Assembly: GCF_026210795.1 (NCBI RefSeq)
Contig: NC_089441.1
Coordinates: 3,224,001-3,288,000, forward strand
Length of the DNA: 64,000 bases
Origin: Rhizophagus irregularis
Lineage: Eukaryota > Glomeromycota > Glomeromycetes > Glomerales > Glomeraceae
Direction: 5' to 3'
Shown here: one piece after another, positions 1 to 61,600 of the stretch
Numbering within the stretch: the first letter of the stretch is position 1
How the letters are laid out: each line of letters begins with the position of its first letter
Notes under the pieces: generated by a model
Databases searched by the model: none
The model's input: only the letters and a program-made list of their open reading frames with translations
What the model was told of the DNA's origin: nothing
Program-made: the position numbers and the translations under genes

Positions 1-2243
1 GAGTTGATCGAACATTTCAGATCATTTGCGGGAAAAAAGTTGAATTCAAATGAAAAGTTAAAAGGAAGATGGATTCGTCAATATAGTCCTATACAAGATA
101 TAAATGAATGTTGGTATAACGAAGTTATTCAACCTATTAGTGAGAGTGAATAGGACCATATGATTAGACAGCTAGCAAATAATAAAGCGCCAGAAATCTC
201 CCAGATATCGAATGAAATGCTCAAACATATGGGAGCTTCAATGAAAAGTGTCACGTTAAAATTAGCAAATTTATGTTTACAAGTCGGTGATATCCCTGAA
301 GAATAGAGACATGCGTTATTGTATCCTATCCCGAAGACAATGGATTGGGAGTACTCATTAACAAAAACTAGACCAATAATACTCCTAGAAACTTTGAGAA
401 AAGTGTTAGTAAAAATTGTTACAAAAAGATTATTTAAAGTTATTGCGAAGCGTAATATATTAAAAGGAGGTAATCACGTGGGGCTACCTGGTGGATCTAC
501 AGAGGCGCCTTTAAGAATCATTAATACTTGTATTGAAGACGCAAAGAAGAATAATAAAGAGTTGTGGTTGACTTTTCAGGACCTCTCTAAAACTTATGAT
601 AGGGTAGATATTAAGATGCTTAAATTAGCATTGCAAAGAATTAAGATCCCAGAGGTTTCGATCTGTTTGATGATTAACTTATTTACGAATAGTAAAAAAA
701 GTGTTATAAAAGAAAAAGGAATAACGAAACAATACACGTCTATCATAGGAATAGATCAAGGTGAGGTCATTTCACCGCTGCTATGAACAATTTATTATGA
801 TCCATTGCTCGCAGAAATTAATTCATTAAAAATGAGATATGAAATTGAGCATTGCTTTAAAAGTAATGTACAATCAGACCAAGAAGAAAAACTCAGAATT
901 AATGTATCATCACAGTCATATATGGATAACGTCATGTGGATTACTAAAAGTAAAGCTCAGTTAGAGCAGATCTTGAAAATTGCAGATGAATTTAACATTA
1001 TGAACAATATACAAACAAATTATGATAAGTTTGAAATGATAACGAACAAAAAGTTAGATAAAGATATTGTTGAAGTTAATTTCGGATCGTCAAAAAGAAT
1101 GATTAAACCATTAACATCAAAAGAATCTGTGAGAATTTTAGGTGTTTGGATTAATTTAGATTTAAAAACTAATTATGTCTTTAACCAGTGCATGGATATT
1201 ATTAAAAGATATAACAAAACAATTAGCTTCAAACAAATAACGGATTTGCAGATGAAATATATATATAATCACGTGATTATTCCTCATGTTGACTATAAAG
1301 CACAATTGTTAGTTTGGACAAATTCTCAAACAGAAAAATTAAATTCTACCTGTAGATATATGTTTAAAAGAAAAGCGTCATTGCCACTTACTACTCCTAA
1401 TAGTATTATACATTTATCATTGGGTTATGCTATTAAAGATATTAATACGATTCAAGCTCAAAGACAGTTAAGTAGATTATACAATCAAGTGATATCAAAG
1501 GGTATGATGAAAGATATTTTTGAAATAGATTGTAAACAATTGCAAAGTGAATTACTATCTAATAAATCTCCATTAGCAACATGGAATATTAGTCTGAAAG
1601 ACTTACAAGTAAAACACTATTTATTAGCTCGTGTTTTAGCACTCTTATACGACAATATGTTAACCATAAAATCAAGTGGTATGAGAGTTAATCAGATTCA
1701 AGGGGGATTATTACCAATAGTAGACATATGTACACATAAAGAAATATTTTCAAATGGAATTAATAAGGGACTGAAAGGGAAAAATATTTATTTCGTTAGT
1801 CAGTTGATGTCGTCAGATGGTATACGTCTTCTGAGATATAAAGATTTGAAACACAGAACTAAGATAAATACACAGGGTAGAATCCCTAGTTGGTTCAAGT
1901 TTATAGAAACTAAACTTATTAAAGATCCTTTAAAATCTAAGAAAGTAAAAACTGATTATCAATTAGAATATAATATACATAGTGTAACTACAAAAATTGA
2001 TAATTTAAAAACAAAAAATTGGATAACAACCTTTCATGATCAAATAGGTAAACCTATAATTGGGCATGTTTTAGATAATCCAAGTGAGAACAAAATTCGT
2101 ATAGAACATTGGATACAAGACCTAGAAAATGATCAAATATCACCATCAGTACAGTTACCAATCCTTAAAAAATGTGGAAGATGTGAAGTGAAAACGAATC
2201 AGATCAGAAATAAAAGAAGTAACACTAAAGTAAGGTGTATAGC

Positions 2244-3653
2244 TAGTGTTCCAAAAAAAAACCGATCCGATTTGTATCTGCGGATCTGATCTGTGACGGA
2301 TCAGATCAGACCATATATTTTATGATCCGTGATCCGATCTGAATTAAAAAAATTTGATCTGTTTCGGATCGGATCAGATCAGATCAACAATTCATTAAAA
2401 TCAGATCAGATCAGATTGATTTGAACGGATCTGGATCAGATCCAATTCAAAACCATTGCGAAATGGTAAATAAAAAATGTTTCGCAACGTTTTTTATTAA
2501 AATCGAAAAAAATGTTGCGAAACGTTTTTTTCTTCAATAAATTAATAATAAAAATGTTTCGCAATGTTTTTTATTAAAATATTTAAAAAAACCGTTGTGA
2601 AACGGTATTTTTTATTTTAAATTAAAAATAAAAAACGTTTCGCAACGTTTTTTATTAAAATCATTAAAAAAACGTTGCGAAACATTTTTTTTCAATAAAT
2701 TAATAATAAAAAATGTTTTGCAACGTTTTTTTTATTAAAATAGTTAAAAAAACTGTTGTAAAACGGTATTTTTTCTTTTAAATTGAAAGTAAAAAACGTT
2801 TCGCAACGTTTTTTATTAAAATATTTAAAAAAACCGTTGTGAAATGGTATTTTTTATTTTAAATTAAAAATAAAAAATGTTTCGCAATGTTTTTTATTAA
2901 AATCATTAAAAAAACGTTTTGAAACGTTTTTTATTAAAATAGTTAAAAAAACCGTTGCTAAATGGGTTTTTTCTTTTAAATTGAAAGTAAAAAACATTTC
3001 ACAACATTTTTTATTAAAATAGTTAAAAAAAACTGTTGCGAAATGGTTTTTTATTAAAATAATTAAAAAAACTGTTGCGAAATGGTTTTTTTCTTTTAAA
3101 TTAATAATAAAAAACGTTTTGCAACGTTTTTTATTAAAATATTTAAAAAAACTGTTGCGAAACGGTATTTTTTATTTTAAATTAAAAATAAAAAATGTTT
3201 TGCAACGTTTTTTATTAAATTGTTAAAAAAACGTTGCGAAACGTTTTTTTCGATAAATTAATAATAAAAAACGTTTCACAATGTTTTTTTATTAAAATAG
3301 TAAAAAAAACTATTGCGAAATGGTATTTTTTATTTTAAATTAAAAATAAAAAACATTTCGCAACATTTTTATTAAAATCGTTAAAAAAATGTTGCGAAAT
3401 GTTTTTTTTTCAATAAATTAATAATAAAAAACATTTCGCAACGTTTTTTAAATTTCGAATTCAGATCAGATCGGATAAATCCGAATTGAATTCAGACTGA
3501 ATCGAATCAAGTCTGTTTCAGATTCGGATCGGATCAGATCCATTTTTTTTTGATCCGAATTTGGATCAGATCGAATCCATTTTTTTTGATCCGAATTCGG
3601 ATCAGATCAGATTCATCTCAAATCCGATCTGATTCAATCCGTTCAGAATACTA
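2244..3653. mobile_element. Non-autonomous hAT-like element with 8-bp TSD
   Basis: The 8-mer TGTATAGC flanks the block at 2,236-2,243 and 3,654-3,661. The element begins TAGTGTTC and ends with the inverse of TAGTATTC, a 7/8 terminal inverted repeat. Removing it with one TSD copy joins the LINE reading frame perfectly (..C-I-A-D-I..), which confirms the borders. The subterminal 200 bp on each side are crowded with GATC, GGATCAGATC and GATCCGATCTG words in both orientations, as in hAT subterminal transposase-binding repeats. The middle is a minisatellite. No coding capacity was seen. The hAT assignment rests on TSD length and TIR style. Confidence 0.82.
2440..3455. repeat. Minisatellite of palindromic AACGTTTCGCAACGTT-like units
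   Basis: About 1 kb made of alternating units containing the near-palindrome AACGTTTCGCAACGTT or its variants (AACCGTTGCGAAACGG, AATGTTTCGCAATG), separated by A/T spacers such as TTTTTATTAAAAT and TTAATAATAAAAA. Units occur in both orientations, so the single strand could fold into many short hairpins. It forms the core of the hAT-like element at 2,244-3,653. CG dinucleotides are often replaced by TG or CA between units, as expected from deamination of methylated C. Confidence 0.85.
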
Positions 3654-5155
3654 TGTATAGCAGATATTAGTATAGAGAATTGTGTTAAAGTTAATGCAAA
3701 TTCAATACAAAATGATCGTTATATAGCAGACATGGCTATTTACAAGGCATTAGCTCAAGCAGAATGTAAATACTATGGAAAAACGTCTATGAATGAATGT
3801 ATTATTGAAAAAGGGAATGGCTTGTTTAAATATATATATCCAAGTGATTATCGTAATGTGTTGATAGAAATTGCAAATAGTTTAACGCAAGAAACTGATA
3901 TAGAGATTTATACAGATGGGTCGATGAAAAATATAGCAACTAACGAAATAATGATGGGTTGTGCGTTCGTAATTAGCGCTCTCACAAAGAAAAGTTTTAA
4001 TTGTGGAATTGCAGATAATCCTTCATCTAATAAGGCCGAATTAATGGCAGTGATTTTAAGTTTAATGACCTGTCCTAAAGCTACAAATGTCGAAATATAT
4101 AGTGATTCTCAATGGGTAGTTAATACATTTGATGATTTAAACTTTTTGACGATTAAAAATATAGAAAGATCAAAAGTTAATTATAAGGTTTTATGGTTAT
4201 GTTTATTCAAGATAATCAGAATCTATAGTCTAAAAGTAAAGATAACTAAAGTTAAAGTGCATAGTGATTGTGATTATAATAAAGAAGCAGATAAGTTAGC
4301 TAAATCTGGTGCAGAGAAAAATGTATTAATAATAGAGGATAAGTTGTTATTACACAATGGTACAGTTTGTTGGAGAGATATGCCTATAGAACATAACCCT
4401 ATTCTTATGATAAAGGGAATAAAGGACACTCAATTTATTGAAGAATTCCTAATGCTACACCGTAATGAAGTTTATAGACAACCAGATCTATTAAGGTTAA
4501 TAGATTGGAAAATATCTTTAAAGTTAAATAACATAAATCAATATGATACATTGTTTGAGGATCATTATTTACAATCATTTAGGATTAAAATTTGTTGTAA
4601 TGAATTACCAACTTGTGCTAATTTAAAAAAGCGTAAGCCAGATCTATATGATGAAGATTGGAAATGTAATTTTTGTAAAATAAAAGAAGAAACCTTTAAT
4701 CATTTTTGGAAATGTAGTAAGATTCAAAATGTAGTGCAAGATATACTCATGCGATTAAAAATTTTTTTAGTTAAAATTATTCAAAAGATGATATAAATAC
4801 GCAAGAATTATTAAATGGTAAAATTAATGAGCTTGGTATGTAGGATATTGGATGTTTATATGATTTTACATTTTTAATGAAGAATCAAGTCAGTTGTCAA
4901 TTAATAGAATTATTAAGGTGCTATAAAATAATTGAAGAAAAATTGTTGTATAAGGTACTGAAACAAATAACTGGAAGAGTTTTATTAGAATTCAAAGTGC
5001 TTATTTGGAAATCAAGGAACGAGTTACAAATAAAGGAAGAAAAGCGGTGCAGTATTAGCGGTAAAGATAAAAAAGCTAAGTCACATAGTAATCGCACTGA
5101 AGTGGGTGTTAAAAATGTTAGCTGTAAGATGTTAGAAAGTAATTGGAATAAATGA

Positions 5156-24163: not shown

Positions 24164-24815
24164 TCACTGGCAGATTTTTAGGTCTGTGATACCGCCTATC
24201 CTCTCGTTGTGTACATCCAAGATATGCTGTAGCACAACCTGTAAAAATTTTCTTTCTTGTATTAAGATGTATATCCCGAACCTCCAATAATAACCAGACC
24301 CATCTTCAAGCGGTAATATGAAAATATTTATTAATTGGTGGAAATTTTTCTTTATTGTTTCAAGATCACATACATTGGGCTGAAATTCTGGAAAAATGCA
24401 TTCAACAAGTCGTAAATCAAGCTCTATTTCAAATGCTAATATTACTGGTTCATTCAAGTCTTCTGCATCTTGAAACCGCTTGGAAATTATTTCTTGTACC
24501 TCTTCCAAACCATATAAAAGTCCATCAGTTTCACCATCATATCCTGCATAATATCATTTAGTAGCTCAAGATTCATAAGTTGGGAAAAGGGAGTTTGACT
24601 GGAATCAGTATTTATTTGAGGAATCGGTTCATTTAAGCCATCTTCAAGTTTCTTTTTTTTTCTGGACTTTTCACGTATTCTTGCGTTTTTCATAACATTT
24701 ATTGCAAGTTGAATACTCTTTCTGTGGATTGGCACTACAAGGATAGTAAAAATCTGCCTTTTTCTTTATGCATGAACAGTGAGTACAATTTTTTTCATTA
24801 AAATTCGGACCAGAA
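24164..24815 (-). pseudogene. Broken Cys-rich ORF, unknown family
   Basis: Reading the minus strand from 24,815 gives CTHCSC, then YPCSANPQKEYSTCNKCYEKR (two CxxC pairs, zinc-binding look). A TGA follows, then an open stretch to about 24,530. A +1 slip near 24,525 leads into a 114-codon open segment with EEVQEIISKRFQDAEDLNEPV and ending ITDLKICQ. I do not know the function. It resembles a small zinc-binding ORF that seems to be multicopy in this type of genome. The stop and the slip make it a pseudogene. Confidence 0.45.
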
Positions 24816-25290
24816 TATTCTATTGTATGGACGTTTTATAATTTATGATTTTAATTTATTCAACCTTAATTTTCAATTTTAATCATCATATTAGCATAAT
24901 ATCACGAATAAAATTAATACCTCTCAAATTTTCTTTATTCATTTTAGTTTTCTTTGCGCAGTGTTTTTTAAAGTAAAAATAAGTAAGATTAATCAAATAT
25001 TTAAATAAATGTGTGTTATACACAAAAGCGTGATTCCCTCCCATTAATAATCTATTTTAGAATGCGAATCGTGAGATTTTATGCATAAATAATTAATAAT
25101 TTAGTAGTACTGAAACATGTTTTACTGTAATTTTTTATTTCTTTGACTCAGACGAAAGTGTTAACTTCTATTTACAAATTTTAACAAGTCAATATTTTAA
25201 TTTTACGACTATAGAATATTTTGATATTTACCGACCTGGTAATAGGTCGGATCAGATCGGCTTCACGTGACTGCCACTTTTTTTTTGCCG
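24816..25290. other. AT-rich spacer
   Basis: No gene or repeat structure seen, apart from a short GGTCGGATCAGATCGGC patch near 25,232-25,262 that recalls the GATC-rich ends of the element at 2,244-3,653. Confidence 0.4.
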
Positions 25291-25301
25291 TGGCTAGGGT
25301 T

Positions 25302-25498
25302 ATTTTCCCCTGCGTAACCGTGAAAGTGCATTTTCACGTGATCACTCATTTTATTTATCACCCTACCGCGTTTCCACTTTTTATATTTTCGAGTAAGTAA
25401 AAACTTATTTGTCACTCTTTATTCGTCACCTGCACTTTCACGTGCAACTGCATAATGCCGTAATGCCGTGCTTTTTTTCACGGTTACGCAGGGGTAGT
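25302..25498. mobile_element. 197-bp MITE with 11-bp TSD (MULE type)
   Basis: The inverted core CCCCTGCGTAACCGTGAAA occurs at both ends. The 11-mer TGGCTAGGGTT is duplicated exactly at 25,291-25,301 and 25,499-25,509. It contains two CACGTG words (25,335; 25,439). TSD length of 9-11 bp is typical of Mutator-like elements. Confidence 0.85.
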
Positions 25499-25509
25499 TG
25501 GCTAGGGTT

Positions 25510-26467
25510 GTAGATTGCGTCATGAATTCACAAGAAAATCGTTAAATGACTTTGTGGCAAAAATTACCTTCTTGACCCTTCTCGCATTACTTTCTTGACC
25601 CAGTCAAAATATGCATGATTATGTATGACAAAAATGTTCCTTTCTTGACCTGAAACGCGATTGTGATAAACAAAAAAGAAATTTTATTTTTTATTTATAT
25701 TTAACAAAAATAGCGTGCAATCTGTCTTTTGCGAGTTGCGAGCATGGTCAATACTTTTTTATTTCTACAATATTGATAAAATTAAAATAATTTTATTTTA
25801 TTTACAAAAGATAGCTGATAAAAAGATTACATTTAAGAGAAATACATTAATTAGGTAATATATACTAGCATAAAACTAAATATTAAAATATTAAAATAAA
25901 AAAAAAAATAAATTATTTTGTCATTTAATCATTAATGATAAAAAAATTTAATCTTTGTGTATATCTCTTGAAAAATTATGAAAATAAGAAAAATAACAAC
26001 GCGTTAATGTTTTTTGCAGGTCAAGAAAAGAACATTTTTGTCATACATAATCATGCATATTTTGATCAAGTCAAGAAAGTAATACGAGGAGGGTCAAGAA
26101 AGTAATTTTTGCGACTTTGTGAGAATTATCGTATTATATTACTACCTGAATTCCGCACTCAAGAAATGATCCGACGTGGGCAACGACGAATTGGATCCAA
26201 GACTGCTCGAGCCATGTGTACATGGTCACATTTTCGCTTTCGACAGCATTTGATCCATAAGGCATGTGAATATCCATGGTGTCAAGTTATAATTTGTACA
26301 GAAGAATATACAAGCAAAACTTGCGGATTCTGTGGATATATTCATAAAAACTAAGCGGATCTAAAGAATTTTGCTGTCCCCAATGCAAAACAAAACTTGA
26401 TAGGGATATAAATGGTGCTCGTAATATTCTCTTACGATATCTCCCAAAAAAGGAAAAAGAGTCCTAA
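25510..26467 (+). pseudogene. Fanzor (eukaryotic TnpB-like, IS605 OrfB family) C-terminal remnant
   Basis: Coding sequence resumes across the MITE at 25,557-26,112: IHKKIVK, an in-frame TGA where Trp is expected, then LCENYRIILLPEF. It continues SSKTARAMCTWSHFRFRQHL-like sequence and TEEYTSKTCGFCG (first CxxC). A +1 slip near 26,350 follows, then FCCPQCKTKLDRDINGARN with the second CxxC and the RuvC-III Asp (DRD). It ends at TAA 26,465. This is the zinc-ribbon plus RuvC-III end of TnpB/Fanzor RNA-guided nucleases. Only about 130 codons remain. The N-terminal wedge/RuvC-I part and any guide RNA region are not recognisable upstream, where another MITE sits. Non-functional. Confidence 0.82.
25557..26112. 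mobile_element. 556-bp MITE with ~95-bp TIRs and 9-bp TSD
   Basis: GACTTTGTG is duplicated at 25,548-25,556 and 26,113-26,121. The ends begin GCAAAAATTAC and stay inverted for about 95 bp, through repeated TTTCTTGACC and CATGCATGATTATG words. The interior is non-coding and A/T-rich. Removing it restores the Fanzor reading phase at KIVK-(stop)-LCENY. A MULE-type non-autonomous element is the best fit. Confidence 0.93.
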
Positions 26468-26865: not shown

Positions 26866-31957
<5,092 letters not shown>

Positions 31958-56389: not shown

Positions 56390-58689
56390 CAGTCAGGCCT
56401 CTATGTACCGATATCGTATAGACTGATATTTTCATGTACCGATAGAATTTTCGTGTTCCATTTCACAACTAGTAAAAAATCCTTGTTATACCGATATTAC
56501 ATATTGTTTCACGATGTAACATGTATCGATACTTTTCTTTGTCCCCTTTTAATTAACATATAGTAAGATGTACCGATATTTTAGGTTACACCAGTATATA
56601 ATCTTACTTAACGCGTTGTAGTGCGTCTTTGTTTGCTTTAGAAATCATGTCTCAACTACAAGTAAAAAGGAAGTTAACTCAAGATGCTTCTCAAACAAAG
56701 AAAAGAGTCGTTTTAACACATGCACAAAAAAGACAACTCTGTTTAGATTATCAAAACACGCCACGGTCTACTCAAGAAGGACTTGCCACCTTGTATAATA
56801 TTAAGCAAAATACAGTTTCTGATATCTTAAAAAAGAAAGAAAAGTGGCTGAATGTAAATCCAGACTCAGAAGAGTCAAATAAACTGAGGGAAAAGCCTGT
56901 TCGCTTCCCTCAAGTAGAGGAGGCTCTTTCATTATGGATAACTAATGCACTTGCTGCATATCTTGTTATTAATACTGATATTTTACGTGAAAAAGCTAAA
57001 TTTTTTGCACAACAGTTTGAAGTTAATAATTTTGCAGCTTCTAATGGATGGATTAATGGATTTAAAGAACGTCACAGTTTAAAACAGTATGTTAAGTGGG
57101 GTGAAGCAAAAAGTGCTCCATTGGAAACATCAGACGAAGAAAGGAAGATTTTACGTGAAATCATTAAAGATTATGATTTAAATGATGTTTTCAATTGCGA
57201 TGAAACAGGTAATCCTAAATTTTCTTTAAAATAATTAAATAATATTCTAATATTTACTGTTTATATTTTAGGATTGTATTGGGATCTTGAACCATCAAAG
57301 ACATTAGCACAAGGCCCACTTTCCGGAAAAAAAAAATCAAAAAAACGTGTTACACTCCTTCTTACATGCAATGCAACTGGGACGGAGAAATTAAAGCCAC
57401 TTTTTATCCATACTTATCAAAATCCACGAATCTTACATGGAAAAAAAAAGGAAGATTTACCAGTTAATTATTATTGGAATTCAACTGCTTGGATGCAGGT
57501 TCCGATATGGAATGATTATCTCACAAAATTGGACAGACAGATGCGATTACAAGGTCGCCACATTCTTTTACTGGTTGATAATGCACCAGTGCATATCATA
57601 GATGAAAATACAAATTTAACAAATGTGGCTGTGCATTTTTTGCCACCAAATACTACAGCGCATTTGCAGCCTTGTGATGCAGGAATAATTAATTCTTTTA
57701 AAGTGAGTGATAGTTTTTTAATTAATTTAAAAACAGTAAAATTTTACAATCTAAATTCAAATTACATTGTATTAATTATGTAATTCTTTAATAATTCAGG
57801 CACAATATCGAAAATTACTCGTTAGAAACAAGATCGAGGCATATGAAATTTCACAAGAATTAAGAAAAGAGACTGTTCCACTAAATATTTATGATGCTAT
57901 TAATTTTAGCAAAAATGCTTGGAATTCTGTAAGTCAGCAGACGATTTTTAATTGTTGGAAACATACAGGAATTCTTCCACAGGATGAGATGGATGGTGAA
58001 ATTGAAGATGATGATCAAGTATTTCATGATGAAATTCATAATGAAATGGAGATACAAGAGTTGATTCACCAACTTCCATTTGATGATCACATGGACGTAA
58101 CAGAATTTCTTCATATAGATGACAACTTGAAAGGTGGTGAAGGGTTAACTGATGAAGAAATCGTATCTATGGTGAAATCCAAGAATACCAAAATAGCCGA
58201 ATCAGAAACTGAAGAATCCTTTGAAGTGATTTCTACTAAAGAAGCCCTGGGTCACTTGGATGATCTTGTTTTATTTTTTGAATACTCATCAGATACTTCT
58301 ATTAACTCAGAATTATTAAATGTCTTAAAGAAATTAAGACGTCAAGTATTGACATTATACATTAATAACACAAAGAAAACAACATTAGATAGTTTTATTC
58401 AATAATATGTACTATTAAATAGTCTTAATTAGTTATGCTAATATTCTAATACAGTATACTGTAATAATGATAATAAATTTCAATTATTATTGCCATAAAC
58501 CATTAAATTTTATTTTTCGTTCAATTTAAGATTTTTTGTTATACAAACGATTACAAAAAATTTTTATATACCGATATTGATCAACATAATATAATAATAT
58601 CAGTACAAAATTTTCATAATGAACCGATAATCTGATATACCGATATTTTTTCCCAAAACAACAGCATCGGTACATAGAGTTCCGACTGT
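56390..58689 (+). mobile_element. pogo/Tigger transposon, apparently intact, TA TSD
   Basis: TA flanks at 56,388-56,389 and 58,690-58,691. TIRs CAGTCAGGCCTCTATGTACC and the inverse of CAGTCGGAACTCTATGTACC. ACCGATAT words recur inside both ends (56,405-56,600; 58,568-58,675). Excision rejoins the LINE frame at ALDD-IHKAAIKHFQ. The single transposase gene has no lesion. Confidence 0.95.
56647..58405 (+). CDS. pogo/Tigger DDE transposase, two introns, intact
   Basis: Cuts and pastes the surrounding element. Exons 56,647-57,208, 57,272-57,702, 57,800-58,405; introns GTAATC..TTTTAG (63 nt) and GTGAGT..TTCAG (97 nt) keep phase; 532 aa. The N-terminal psq-type HTH (LTHAQKRQLCLDYQNTP, LATLYNIKQNTVSDIL) is followed by a CENP-B-type HTH (FPQVEEALSLWI, NFAASNGWINGFKERHSL). 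The DDE_1 core has Asp in FNCDETG, Asp in LLLVDNAPVH and Asp in HLQPCDAGI, i.e. DD32D. Intron 1 falls directly in the CDETG motif. The acidic C-terminus ends KTTLDSFIQ. No stop or slip, unlike every other transposase in this window. Confidence 0.94.
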
Positions 58690-61600
58690 ATTCATAAGGC
58701 TGCCATCAAACATTTTCAAAACATGGTTGGTCCTAGTCAATCTCCGTTTAAAACTCTTAATAGTCTTCCTGAACGATGGAAAAATTGTTATACTCCTATT
58801 TCCTCAATTGACCCAGATATTTATTCAATGGTTATGGTGCCTATCGGTGAAGATGAGCTTCTTGCCGTTATTAATAACTCTCCACACCATAAGGCTCCCG
58901 GTCCCTCGTCTATACCTTATGAATGGTTTAGATTATTATCTTCTGAGGGAATTTTTTATTTATGCAAATTGATGAACTCGTGTTTAGCGAAATCTGATAT
59001 TCTTGAGGATTGGCGTTTAGCTTCTATTGTACCTATTCCTAAACCTCATGAGTTCGAATGCTTACTAAAGAATACCCGCCCAATTACTTTATTGGAAACT
59101 GTTCAGAAATTATTGGTCAAAATTATTACAGATCGTCTTTCTCGAATTATGACTAAATATCAAGTGCTTACTGGTAACAACTTTGCTGGTCTTCCTGGCT
59201 CATCTGTTAATACTCCTATCAACATACTTGATGGCATTATGAAAAGCCATCGTGTCTCTCAAATTCCTCAAGAATTGTGAATTCTGAGTCAAGATATTTC
59301 CAAAGCGTTCGATTCTATAGATCTGAGTATGCTTCGACTGTACTTCGAACAATTAAAATTTCCTTCTAATCTTTCTGATTTTATAATTAGTCTATTTACT
59401 TCTAGAAAGAATAGAATTTTAACTCCCTTTGGTAAAACTGAATCGTATAACCTTTTGATTGGTATTGATCAAGGTGAAATTATTTCTCCACTTCTTTGGA
59501 CTATTTATTTCGATCCCCTTTTAACTGAGTTATCATCGTCAGCAATTTCCCCTTATATATGGAGTTCTGGTATTCCTGCAAATATTCTTAACATCAATAA
59601 TAATGAAGATGTTGCCGTACCTATTACTCAACTTACTTATATGGATGATTCCACTTTAATTGCCTCTTCTTTGGCTGGCTTAGAACAATTACTTTCTATA
59701 GCCTGTGATTTTTATTTTTTAAATAATATTACAGCGAACTTCTCAAAATACGAATTAGTCTCTTTATCAGCTGGCAATAATTTAATTTCATTTCAATTGA
59801 ATTCTGAATTTCCGGATCATCTTTCTTCAATGGGCTTTTCTTTGCGAGCCCTGAGATTATCTTCATCCTTTCGGTTTTTGGGTGTTTGGTTTAATTTACA
59901 AGGATCCCCTAACTTTGTTCTTTCTCAACTCAAAGATATTTACTCTTCCTTTCTTGCATCCGTACGATTCAAGAAACTATCCCCCGTTCAATTGGCTTAT
60001 TTACACTCTTCGGTTGTTTTACCAAAAGCTCAATTCCGTTTCCAAGTATTATACTTGTCAGAATCGCAGGTTATGCGAATCGTCAATGGATACTATGGTC
60101 TACAACACAAAGCTTTTTCTGTGGTTCATACTTTTCCTTCAATAACTTTGACTAGCAGGTTTTTCAGTAAAGATGTTAATCCTTATGACTTTTTATGTGA
60201 ACGACTTTTATGTCATTTCTTATCTTGGATCTCTTTACTATCCACTGGTTCCAAGCAGGCGAATTTAGTTCTTATAATGTTATGAACTTTACAGCTTACT
60301 TTGAAGTAGCCAACTTCTCTTGATTCTCTCATAGATTTTTCCTTATGAACTTCCAAACATCGCTCTATTAGTCATAATTGGCTTTTTCAAGCCATTAAAC
60401 TGCTCTGAGAATCTGGACTCCAATTTGATTTTCCTGATTGTACATTCCTTGAATTAATACCTGATGAAACGTGTCCCTTAGTCGCTTTATCTTCTGACTT
60501 AGCTGTCTTAGAAACGCGTTTCGCTAAGCTCTGCTCTTGGCTCTTTCAGCAAGTTGTGATCCATTTTATAATTTCCTCTTACATAGAACGACCTAAAACA
60601 TATGGGTCTTATTGCCGCTACTGGAAAAATTCCTTCTTGGTTTAGGATTGTCACCTCTCTTTCCAGTTTAACATCTCTTTTACCTGAATGATTGGGATCC
60701 ATTGATATTACTTCATCTTTGTCAACTTTGGTTGGAAAGTTTATAGATAGAATTGATATTTCTTCATATATTCGACTCCGTAATAAATATTATTGGATTG
60801 CTGGAGTCGATTCTTCAAACTCTCTCATTTTCGGGCAGGTTTTTTATACTTTTGATGATGATTCTGGTACTCGAGTTGTCTATTTTTCCCATTGGATTCC
60901 TACTACATCTAATCAAATGCAGATTACTCCTTGCCCTGGTTGTTCCTTTCATTGTCTTGATACGAATGAAGGCCCTTTGACTCTGAAAACAGTTGGCAGA
61001 AAATTAATTCATCGTTCTTGTTTATCCATTTTGCCTTCTTATCGTTGTTTACAACTTTTTCAAATAATTGTATATGTAGATATTTCTCAACAAATTATTA
61101 ATTTAAAACTTTCTTTATTTATTTTATGTTCTTATTTTAGATTTTTGTCTGGATTTTCTGAACTATATATTCCTGATAGATACTCAGCGTTAGCACAACC
61201 ACCTTTATTGCATTGTGACAGTTCTCCTGCCTCACTACCTGATCTTACTCCGGTATCAAATCATAATTTTGCTCTACGTCCGGATACCACTTTCCATATA
61301 TCTAAAACTATACATGCCATTGACTCTATAACTTCATTGTTGGTCTGCGCCTGGGTACAAACCCTTGATGATTTCATACTTGACTCTGGAATTTTTTCCT
61401 GTCCTATGATTTCCCCATATAACGATGTTGCGGAACTAGCTTTTATATTATACGTGTTGAATTCTCTTACTTTGGATTCGTCTGTGTCCTTTGTTTCTTC
61501 GTTTATTTTTGATACGTTGTTTTCAAGATGGTGTGACGCTTCTCCTATACGACGTGTCCAAATGAAAAATCACTCTTTATGGTCTTGTATCTCAGAGCTG

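Follow-up and report, generated by a model that had tools for sequence, protein, structure and literature searches.

A decayed gene end, probably of Fanzor2 or pro-Fanzor grade, in a fungus-like nuclear genome

Background

Which nuclease gene left the broken coding sequence at positions 25520-26467 (plus strand) of a 64,000-nucleotide stretch of DNA, here called the window, and what kind of element carried it? The original prediction was a remnant of a TnpB/Fanzor gene. Fanzors are programmable eukaryotic nucleases; the known ones are described as RNA-guided DNA endonucleases whose guide RNA lies across the 3' end of the gene or beyond it (PMC10432273). As set out below, the locus is quite probably the decayed 3' end of a Fanzor2/pro-Fanzor-grade gene in a fungus-like nuclear genome, and its ancestor was probably the nuclease of an IS607-type transposon.

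Results and discussion

Genomic surroundings

The window is AT-rich eukaryotic DNA, presumably of a fungus and probably of the Glomeromycotina, with a GC content of 18-40% in 2-kb steps, and pieces of it also match hAT, MULE-like, Tc5/CENP-B and reverse-transcriptase sequences. Open frames of the reverse-transcriptase type are located at 307-4796 and 58678-60285, and the part from 59281 to 60285 matches RVT_1 (E 5.6e-13). The remnant, on the plus strand, lies between a minus-strand frame (24164-24553) and an ISWI-type chromatin remodeller, a host gene in pieces (26974-30547, minus strand; SLIDE, E 4.9e-40; SNF2-rel_dom, E 6.3e-62). The minus-strand frame is open for 129 residues, has no Pfam match and adjoins a Cys-rich frame on the same strand (24671-24835); together the two are possibly a lineage-specific gene.

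The locus, its lesions and inserted elements

The recognisable part of the gene comprises the last ~125 codons (about 117-125 residues), in pieces. Its codons furthest 5' (25520-25549, plus strand) read S-stop-IHKKIVK-stop, the two in-frame stops occupying 25523-25525 and 25547-25549, and resemble SELHKKTAKYL of the Microcoleus locus L027. Piece 1 (26115-26351, plus strand) covers the RuvC-II region (IILLPEF, in which the canonical Glu is absent) and continues into the zinc ribbon, of which it has the first half (EEYTSKTCGFCG); it is translated as LCENYRIILLPEF...EEYTSKTCGFCGYIHKN. It is terminated by an in-frame TAA (26352-26354, plus strand), directly after which the frame changes. Piece 2 (26354-26467, plus strand) supplies the other half of the zinc ribbon (CCPQC) and continues through RuvC-III (DRDINGARN) to the C-terminus and the stop codon; the translation of 26354-26464 is SGSKEFCCPQCKTKLDRDINGARNILLRYLPKKEKES. 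Both motifs named in the original prediction were thus located as claimed, the zinc ribbon EEYTSKTCGFCG in the open frame 26106-26351 and RuvC-III CCPQCKTKLDRDINGARN in the open frame 26354-26464.

The lesions are heavier than the single nonsense codon and the slip first described: in-frame stops interrupt the recognisable part at three places (25523, 25547 and 26352), and the frame changes once. As all but ~125 codons have been lost in addition, this Fanzor remnant is a pseudogene, a dead copy.

Two insertions had also been proposed, and one of them does split the coding sequence. It is a non-autonomous, MITE-like inverted-repeat element of 556 bp (25557-26112) whose arms (25554-25655 and 26014-26115, about 102 nt) are 90% complementary. 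It is bordered by two perfectly matching copies of a 9-bp target duplication, GACTTTGTG, on the left at 25548-25556 and on the right at 26113-26121. When the flanks are joined, the codons furthest 5' and piece 1 are in one uninterrupted frame (...S-stop-IHKKIVK-stop-LCENYRIILLPEF) that is similar to SELHKKTAKYLCDKYKVIFLPTF of L027, and since the frame is continuous over the empty site, the element landed inside the gene. A duplication of 9 bp would presumably suit a transposase of the Mutator type (MULE). No further copy of the element was found within the window. The second insertion, of about 197 bp (25302-25498), is flanked by 11-bp direct repeats, TGGCTAGGGTT (25291-25301 and 25499-25509), contains an inner 19-bp inverted repeat and is positioned at the 5' edge of the recognisable remnant. 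Because Fanzor-like sequence was not found beyond it, an interruption of the gene by this element is not established.

Searches upstream and elsewhere in the window, with seven long relatives and the tnpA proteins of L010 and L013 as queries, gave nothing credible for a Fanzor N-terminus or for tnpA. The RuvC-I aspartate, expected 125-275 residues upstream, was likewise not found in the window. The 5' part of the gene is lost, and RuvC-I (DPG), REC and tnpA are gone from the remnant.

Membership in the TnpB/Fanzor family

A profile search, which could have placed the fragment in an unrelated family, assigned it to the TnpB/Fanzor zinc-ribbon family as originally proposed. Piece 1 matches PF07282 over profile positions 1-37 of 60 (E 3e-5; 24.5 bits, below the cutoff of 26.3), and piece 2 over positions 39-60 of 60 (E 1.7e-7, 31.8 bits). 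With the two pieces joined by an X at the lesion, the profile is matched over its whole length (1-60) with an E of 4.3e-16, so that chance is not a sensible explanation. The zinc ribbon, TSKT-CGFC...CPQC-KTKLDRD, also has the form given for the superfamily, in which [TS][TS]xx stands before the C4 zinc ribbon and RD after it (PMC3627910). That the fragment comes from some unrelated zinc-ribbon protein was considered because piece 2 alone gives weak matches to Zn_ribbon_ISL3 and others. This explanation is ruled out by the PF07282 matches and retains next to no probability in view of the whole TNB domain, the RuvC-III motif and the 56% identity over 110 residues to the relatives described below.

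The two motifs had been called diagnostic of the TnpB/Fanzor family. For a Fanzor as such they do not suffice on their own, being common to TnpB and Cas12f-like proteins. The displaced RuvC glutamate together with the eukaryotic setting is better proof of a Fanzor.

Active site

In an alignment of the fragment with six relatives, the column of the canonical RuvC-II Glu is occupied by Glu in the ordinary TnpBs (L004, L005, L006) and by Pro in the fragment. The fragment has an alternative Glu six residues ahead of the first CxxC, in the arrangement E-x6-CxxC (EEYTSKTCGFC). Fanzors and the 'pro-Fanzors' of cyanobacteria are described as having for their signature a displaced Glu of this kind together with a DPG in RuvC-I (PMC10711439). 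The RuvC-I region, where the DPG would lie, is lost from the remnant. The eukaryotic setting is given by the ISWI-type gene (SLIDE, SNF2) beside the remnant on the same contig.

Ordinary TnpBs share the PF07282-type zinc ribbon and RuvC-III with the fragment, but they have the canonical RuvC-II Glu that it lacks and are 28-33% identical to it. An ordinary TnpB was therefore rejected on the active-site pattern, yet an approximately unbiased (AU) test keeps a grouping of the fragment with L004, L005, L006 and L109 (p 0.157). L109 itself has the displaced Glu: its TnpB (3230-4387), encoded beside a serine-recombinase frame on a 339-kb viral contig, combines DLG at RuvC-I with DEEYTSKTC. A different pattern was observed at ten loci from phages and viral contigs (L003, L014-L018, L019, L020, L021 and L024), in which the displaced Glu (E[AE]YTSKT) is retained but the zinc ribbon no longer has its first CxxC, as in SKTVSWTG and SKTRSWDG.

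Nearest relatives

In tblastn searches with piece 1, 51 plasmid records were hit, the best being a Trichormus plasmid (46.8%, E 1e-13), and 93 phage records, the best being a Microcoleus phage (53.2%, E 1e-20). Scanning genome_contigs with an alignment of three rows brought up 418 relatives. Among the best 80 of these 418, 79 are cyanobacterial by title; the top match is L027 from Microcoleus sp. CAN_BIN18, with 56% identity over 110 residues, while L087 reaches 57% over a shorter stretch. The search patterns for genome_contigs consisted of E[EA][YF]TSKTC and a RuvC-II stretch, and the displaced Glu in the loci found is thus partly there by construction. The sole non-cyanobacterial title among the best 80 of the 418 belongs to L104, a pro-Fanzor relative on a 3.2 kb contig labelled as a Clostridia MAG; this title may be a binning error. 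Of the loci returned by two further viral scans, 2 of 3 and 6 of 8, respectively, were on contigs already sampled.

The cyanobacterial IS607 TnpBs ('pro-Fanzors', PMC10711439; e.g. L027) have the displaced Glu and the zinc ribbon spacing of the fragment, and their C-terminal domain is up to 56% identical to it over 110 residues. They differ from it in being open genes, often with tnpA, whereas the fragment is broken, lies in eukaryotic DNA and has no tnpA in the window.

Since the closest known relatives are cyanobacterial, one could suppose that a cyanobacterial-type TnpB moved recently and directly into the fungus, or that the assembly is in error, rather than that the remnant belongs to a Fanzor lineage settled in eukaryotes. 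We regard this as very improbable. With a top identity of only 56%, the remnant is not a recent copy from a sampled bacterium, and single-sequence scans of viral_contigs (2 stretches) and genome_contigs (32 stretches) gave no relative, let alone a close one. Moreover, the remnant has an element with its duplication inside it and an ISWI-type gene adjoining it.

Phylogenetic placement

For the tree, 109 loci were matched, 7 of which were dropped before clustering because the matched stretch was too short, ran past the edge of the locus or contained a stop; the remainder was reduced to 38 rows at 82% identity. Adding the fragment and the chain of L79 brought the tree to 40 rows and 117 columns, and fungal Fanzor1 and yeast Fanzor2 lie outside this sampling. 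The fragment falls within a 97/97 group of 35 rows made up of cyanobacteria, phages, viral contigs and L104, and L004, L005, L006, L109 and L79 are outside this group. The fragment thus groups with IS607 TnpBs of the pro-Fanzor kind, as expected of a Fanzor2, in a tree that samples no fungal Fanzor1 and with the AU test leaving the L004/L005/L006/L109 grouping in place.

Inside the group, the fragment joins L010 and L013 with weak support (91/77, unstarred by the tool). These two loci lie on IMG/VR contigs of 252 kb and 63 kb, respectively, each with a MerR plus Resolvase tnpA that overlaps the tnpB frame; of the neighbouring proteins, none of four tested matched Pfam and none of five tested matched PHROGs. 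A pairing of the fragment with L79 alone was rejected by the AU test (p 0.020), and a grouping with L027, L047 and L051 was not (p 0.354). Because the test keeps alternative groupings, the placement among pro-Fanzors rests on branch support, active-site pattern and identity.

Fanzor1 or Fanzor2

The PDB chain most similar to the fragment is mimivirus L79 (PDB 9b0l; E 1.1e-10), with Cas12f and TnpB-like chains close (E 2.6e-8). L79 represents Fanzor2, the proteins of IS607 elements in eukaryotes and giant viruses, and has the displaced Glu and the zinc ribbon as in the fragment; the fragment is nevertheless nearer to the pro-Fanzors, and the two alone as a clade are rejected, as noted above. 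With a 12-row profile (A3), the E value was 2e-28 for L79 and no better than 0.021 for the Guillardia Fanzor1.

Fanzor1 (SpuFz1, GtFz1) shares the family and the displaced Glu with the fragment (PMC10711439). An alternative is a fungal Fanzor1 remnant that came with a cut-and-paste transposon of eukaryotes and whose C-terminus is unusually conserved. Fanzor1 is the type recorded for five early-diverging fungi, Rhizopus, Phycomyces, Mucor, Allomyces and Spizellomyces, and Fanzor2 is recorded for four yeast-type fungi and Acanthamoeba (Bao and Jurka, PMC3627910); our comparison set contains no fungal Fanzor1. We nevertheless consider this origin unlikely. The fungal Fanzor1 SPu-1-1p is about 15% identical to TnpBs over about 300 residues (PMC3627910), and for the fragment the identity to IS607 TnpBs reaches 56%, far above that value, but its 110 residues are the most conserved stretch and the published figure refers to a longer region. 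The two E values of profile A3 point in the same direction, and among the PDB matches of the fragment with E values up to 10 none is named Fanzor1, 9cer being the Fanzor1 chain whose presence was ascertained.

From the identity to IS607 TnpBs, the behaviour of profile A3 (L79 far ahead of the Guillardia Fanzor1) and the PDB matches of the fragment, the subtype looks like Fanzor2/pro-Fanzor grade, as judged in a comparison set without fungal Fanzor1 genes. This grade in turn points to an IS607-type transposon.

Open tnpB frames across tnpA

The IS607 pro-Fanzor loci showed a further feature. The phage pro-Fanzor gene of L001 (1705-3390; Microcoleus phage My-WqHQDG), annotated as a hypothetical protein, is overlapped, in another frame, by 193 clean codons of an unannotated tnpA. 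The comparison covered the 55 loci whose tnpA is clean over 100 codons or more and whose tnpB is in another frame. The tnpB frame is +1 relative to tnpA at 53 of them (including L001, L003, L010, L013, L027 and L054), and at 47 of these 53 it has at most two stops across tnpA: none at 27, one at 17 and two at 3. Where there are one or two stops, none lies beyond codon 71 of the tnpA stretch. The other six loci (L014, L016, L017, L018, L024 and L109) have at least five stops. In total, 74 stops were observed at the 53 loci, compared with 231 expected from synonymous shuffles, and p is ≤0.05 at 41 of the 53; as the loci are related to each other, they are not independent events. At the two loci with the other frame, L035 and L105, there is no clear shortage of stops (14 vs 13.6 expected and 4 vs 5.5 expected, respectively).

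This pattern suggests that the open tnpB frame is due either to dual coding or to a TnpB N-terminal extension of roughly 170 residues. Overlapping serine-recombinase and TnpB regions in IS607 are mentioned in PMC9956272, and a term search of the accessible text of PMC10711439 found no mention of a tnpB/tnpA frame overlap. For specialists, these frames are perhaps of more interest than the remnant.

Origin and significance

The C-terminal domain of the remnant is of the Fanzor type, with the displaced glutamate, the nearest relatives and the lesions described above; an IS607 origin, a past guide RNA, past activity and a fungal host are inferred. The gene probably goes back to an ancestor that was the nuclease of an IS607-type transposon, an element pairing a serine recombinase (tnpA) with tnpB/Fanzor. 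This transposon would have entered the fungus-like genome, where tnpA was lost along with all of the nuclease gene upstream of its last ~125 codons. In life, the ancestor would have been a RuvC nuclease with the displaced catalytic glutamate and a zinc ribbon, working as other Fanzors do: a guide RNA from the 3' end of the element would have directed the cutting of matching DNA, and this cutting would have favoured retention of the transposon. As RuvC-I is missing, the present copy cannot act as an RNA-guided nuclease, and judging from its sequence it should be inactive today.

The 3' flank was also searched for traces of such an RNA. Twelve windows of 150 nt between 26300 and 26999 gave folding z values of -1.14 to 1.32, against a background of 80 windows with a mean z of -0.20 and a 5th percentile of -1.74. 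The flank is no better folded than the background, a single dead copy being a weak test; Rfam gave no match in the window.

Spizellomyces has 42 Fanzor loci, 19 of them full length, so that partial and full-length copies occur together (PMC10432273). By analogy, it is reasonable to expect intact relatives elsewhere in the present genome. The single dead copy is no tool in itself; its worth is that of a bait for intact copies.

The Fanzor family is already known, and the remnant is a new but dead member of it. We found no Fanzor report for Rhizophagus, arbuscular mycorrhizal fungi or Glomeromycotina in the main texts covered, which included the accessible part of PMC12451028; supplementary tables of Fanzor surveys may list this fungus. 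It is possible, if rather doubtful, that an early-diverging fungus is host to a Fanzor2 lineage that has spread on IS607-type elements, with intact copies elsewhere in the genome, and that this lineage stands nearer to the pro-Fanzors of cyanobacteria than do the other Fanzors in our comparison; such a lineage could mark a separate transfer from bacterium to eukaryote, possibly via viruses. A relic of Fanzor2 grade in fungus-like DNA would extend the host range of the family by one lineage and supply a point near its cyanobacterial root.
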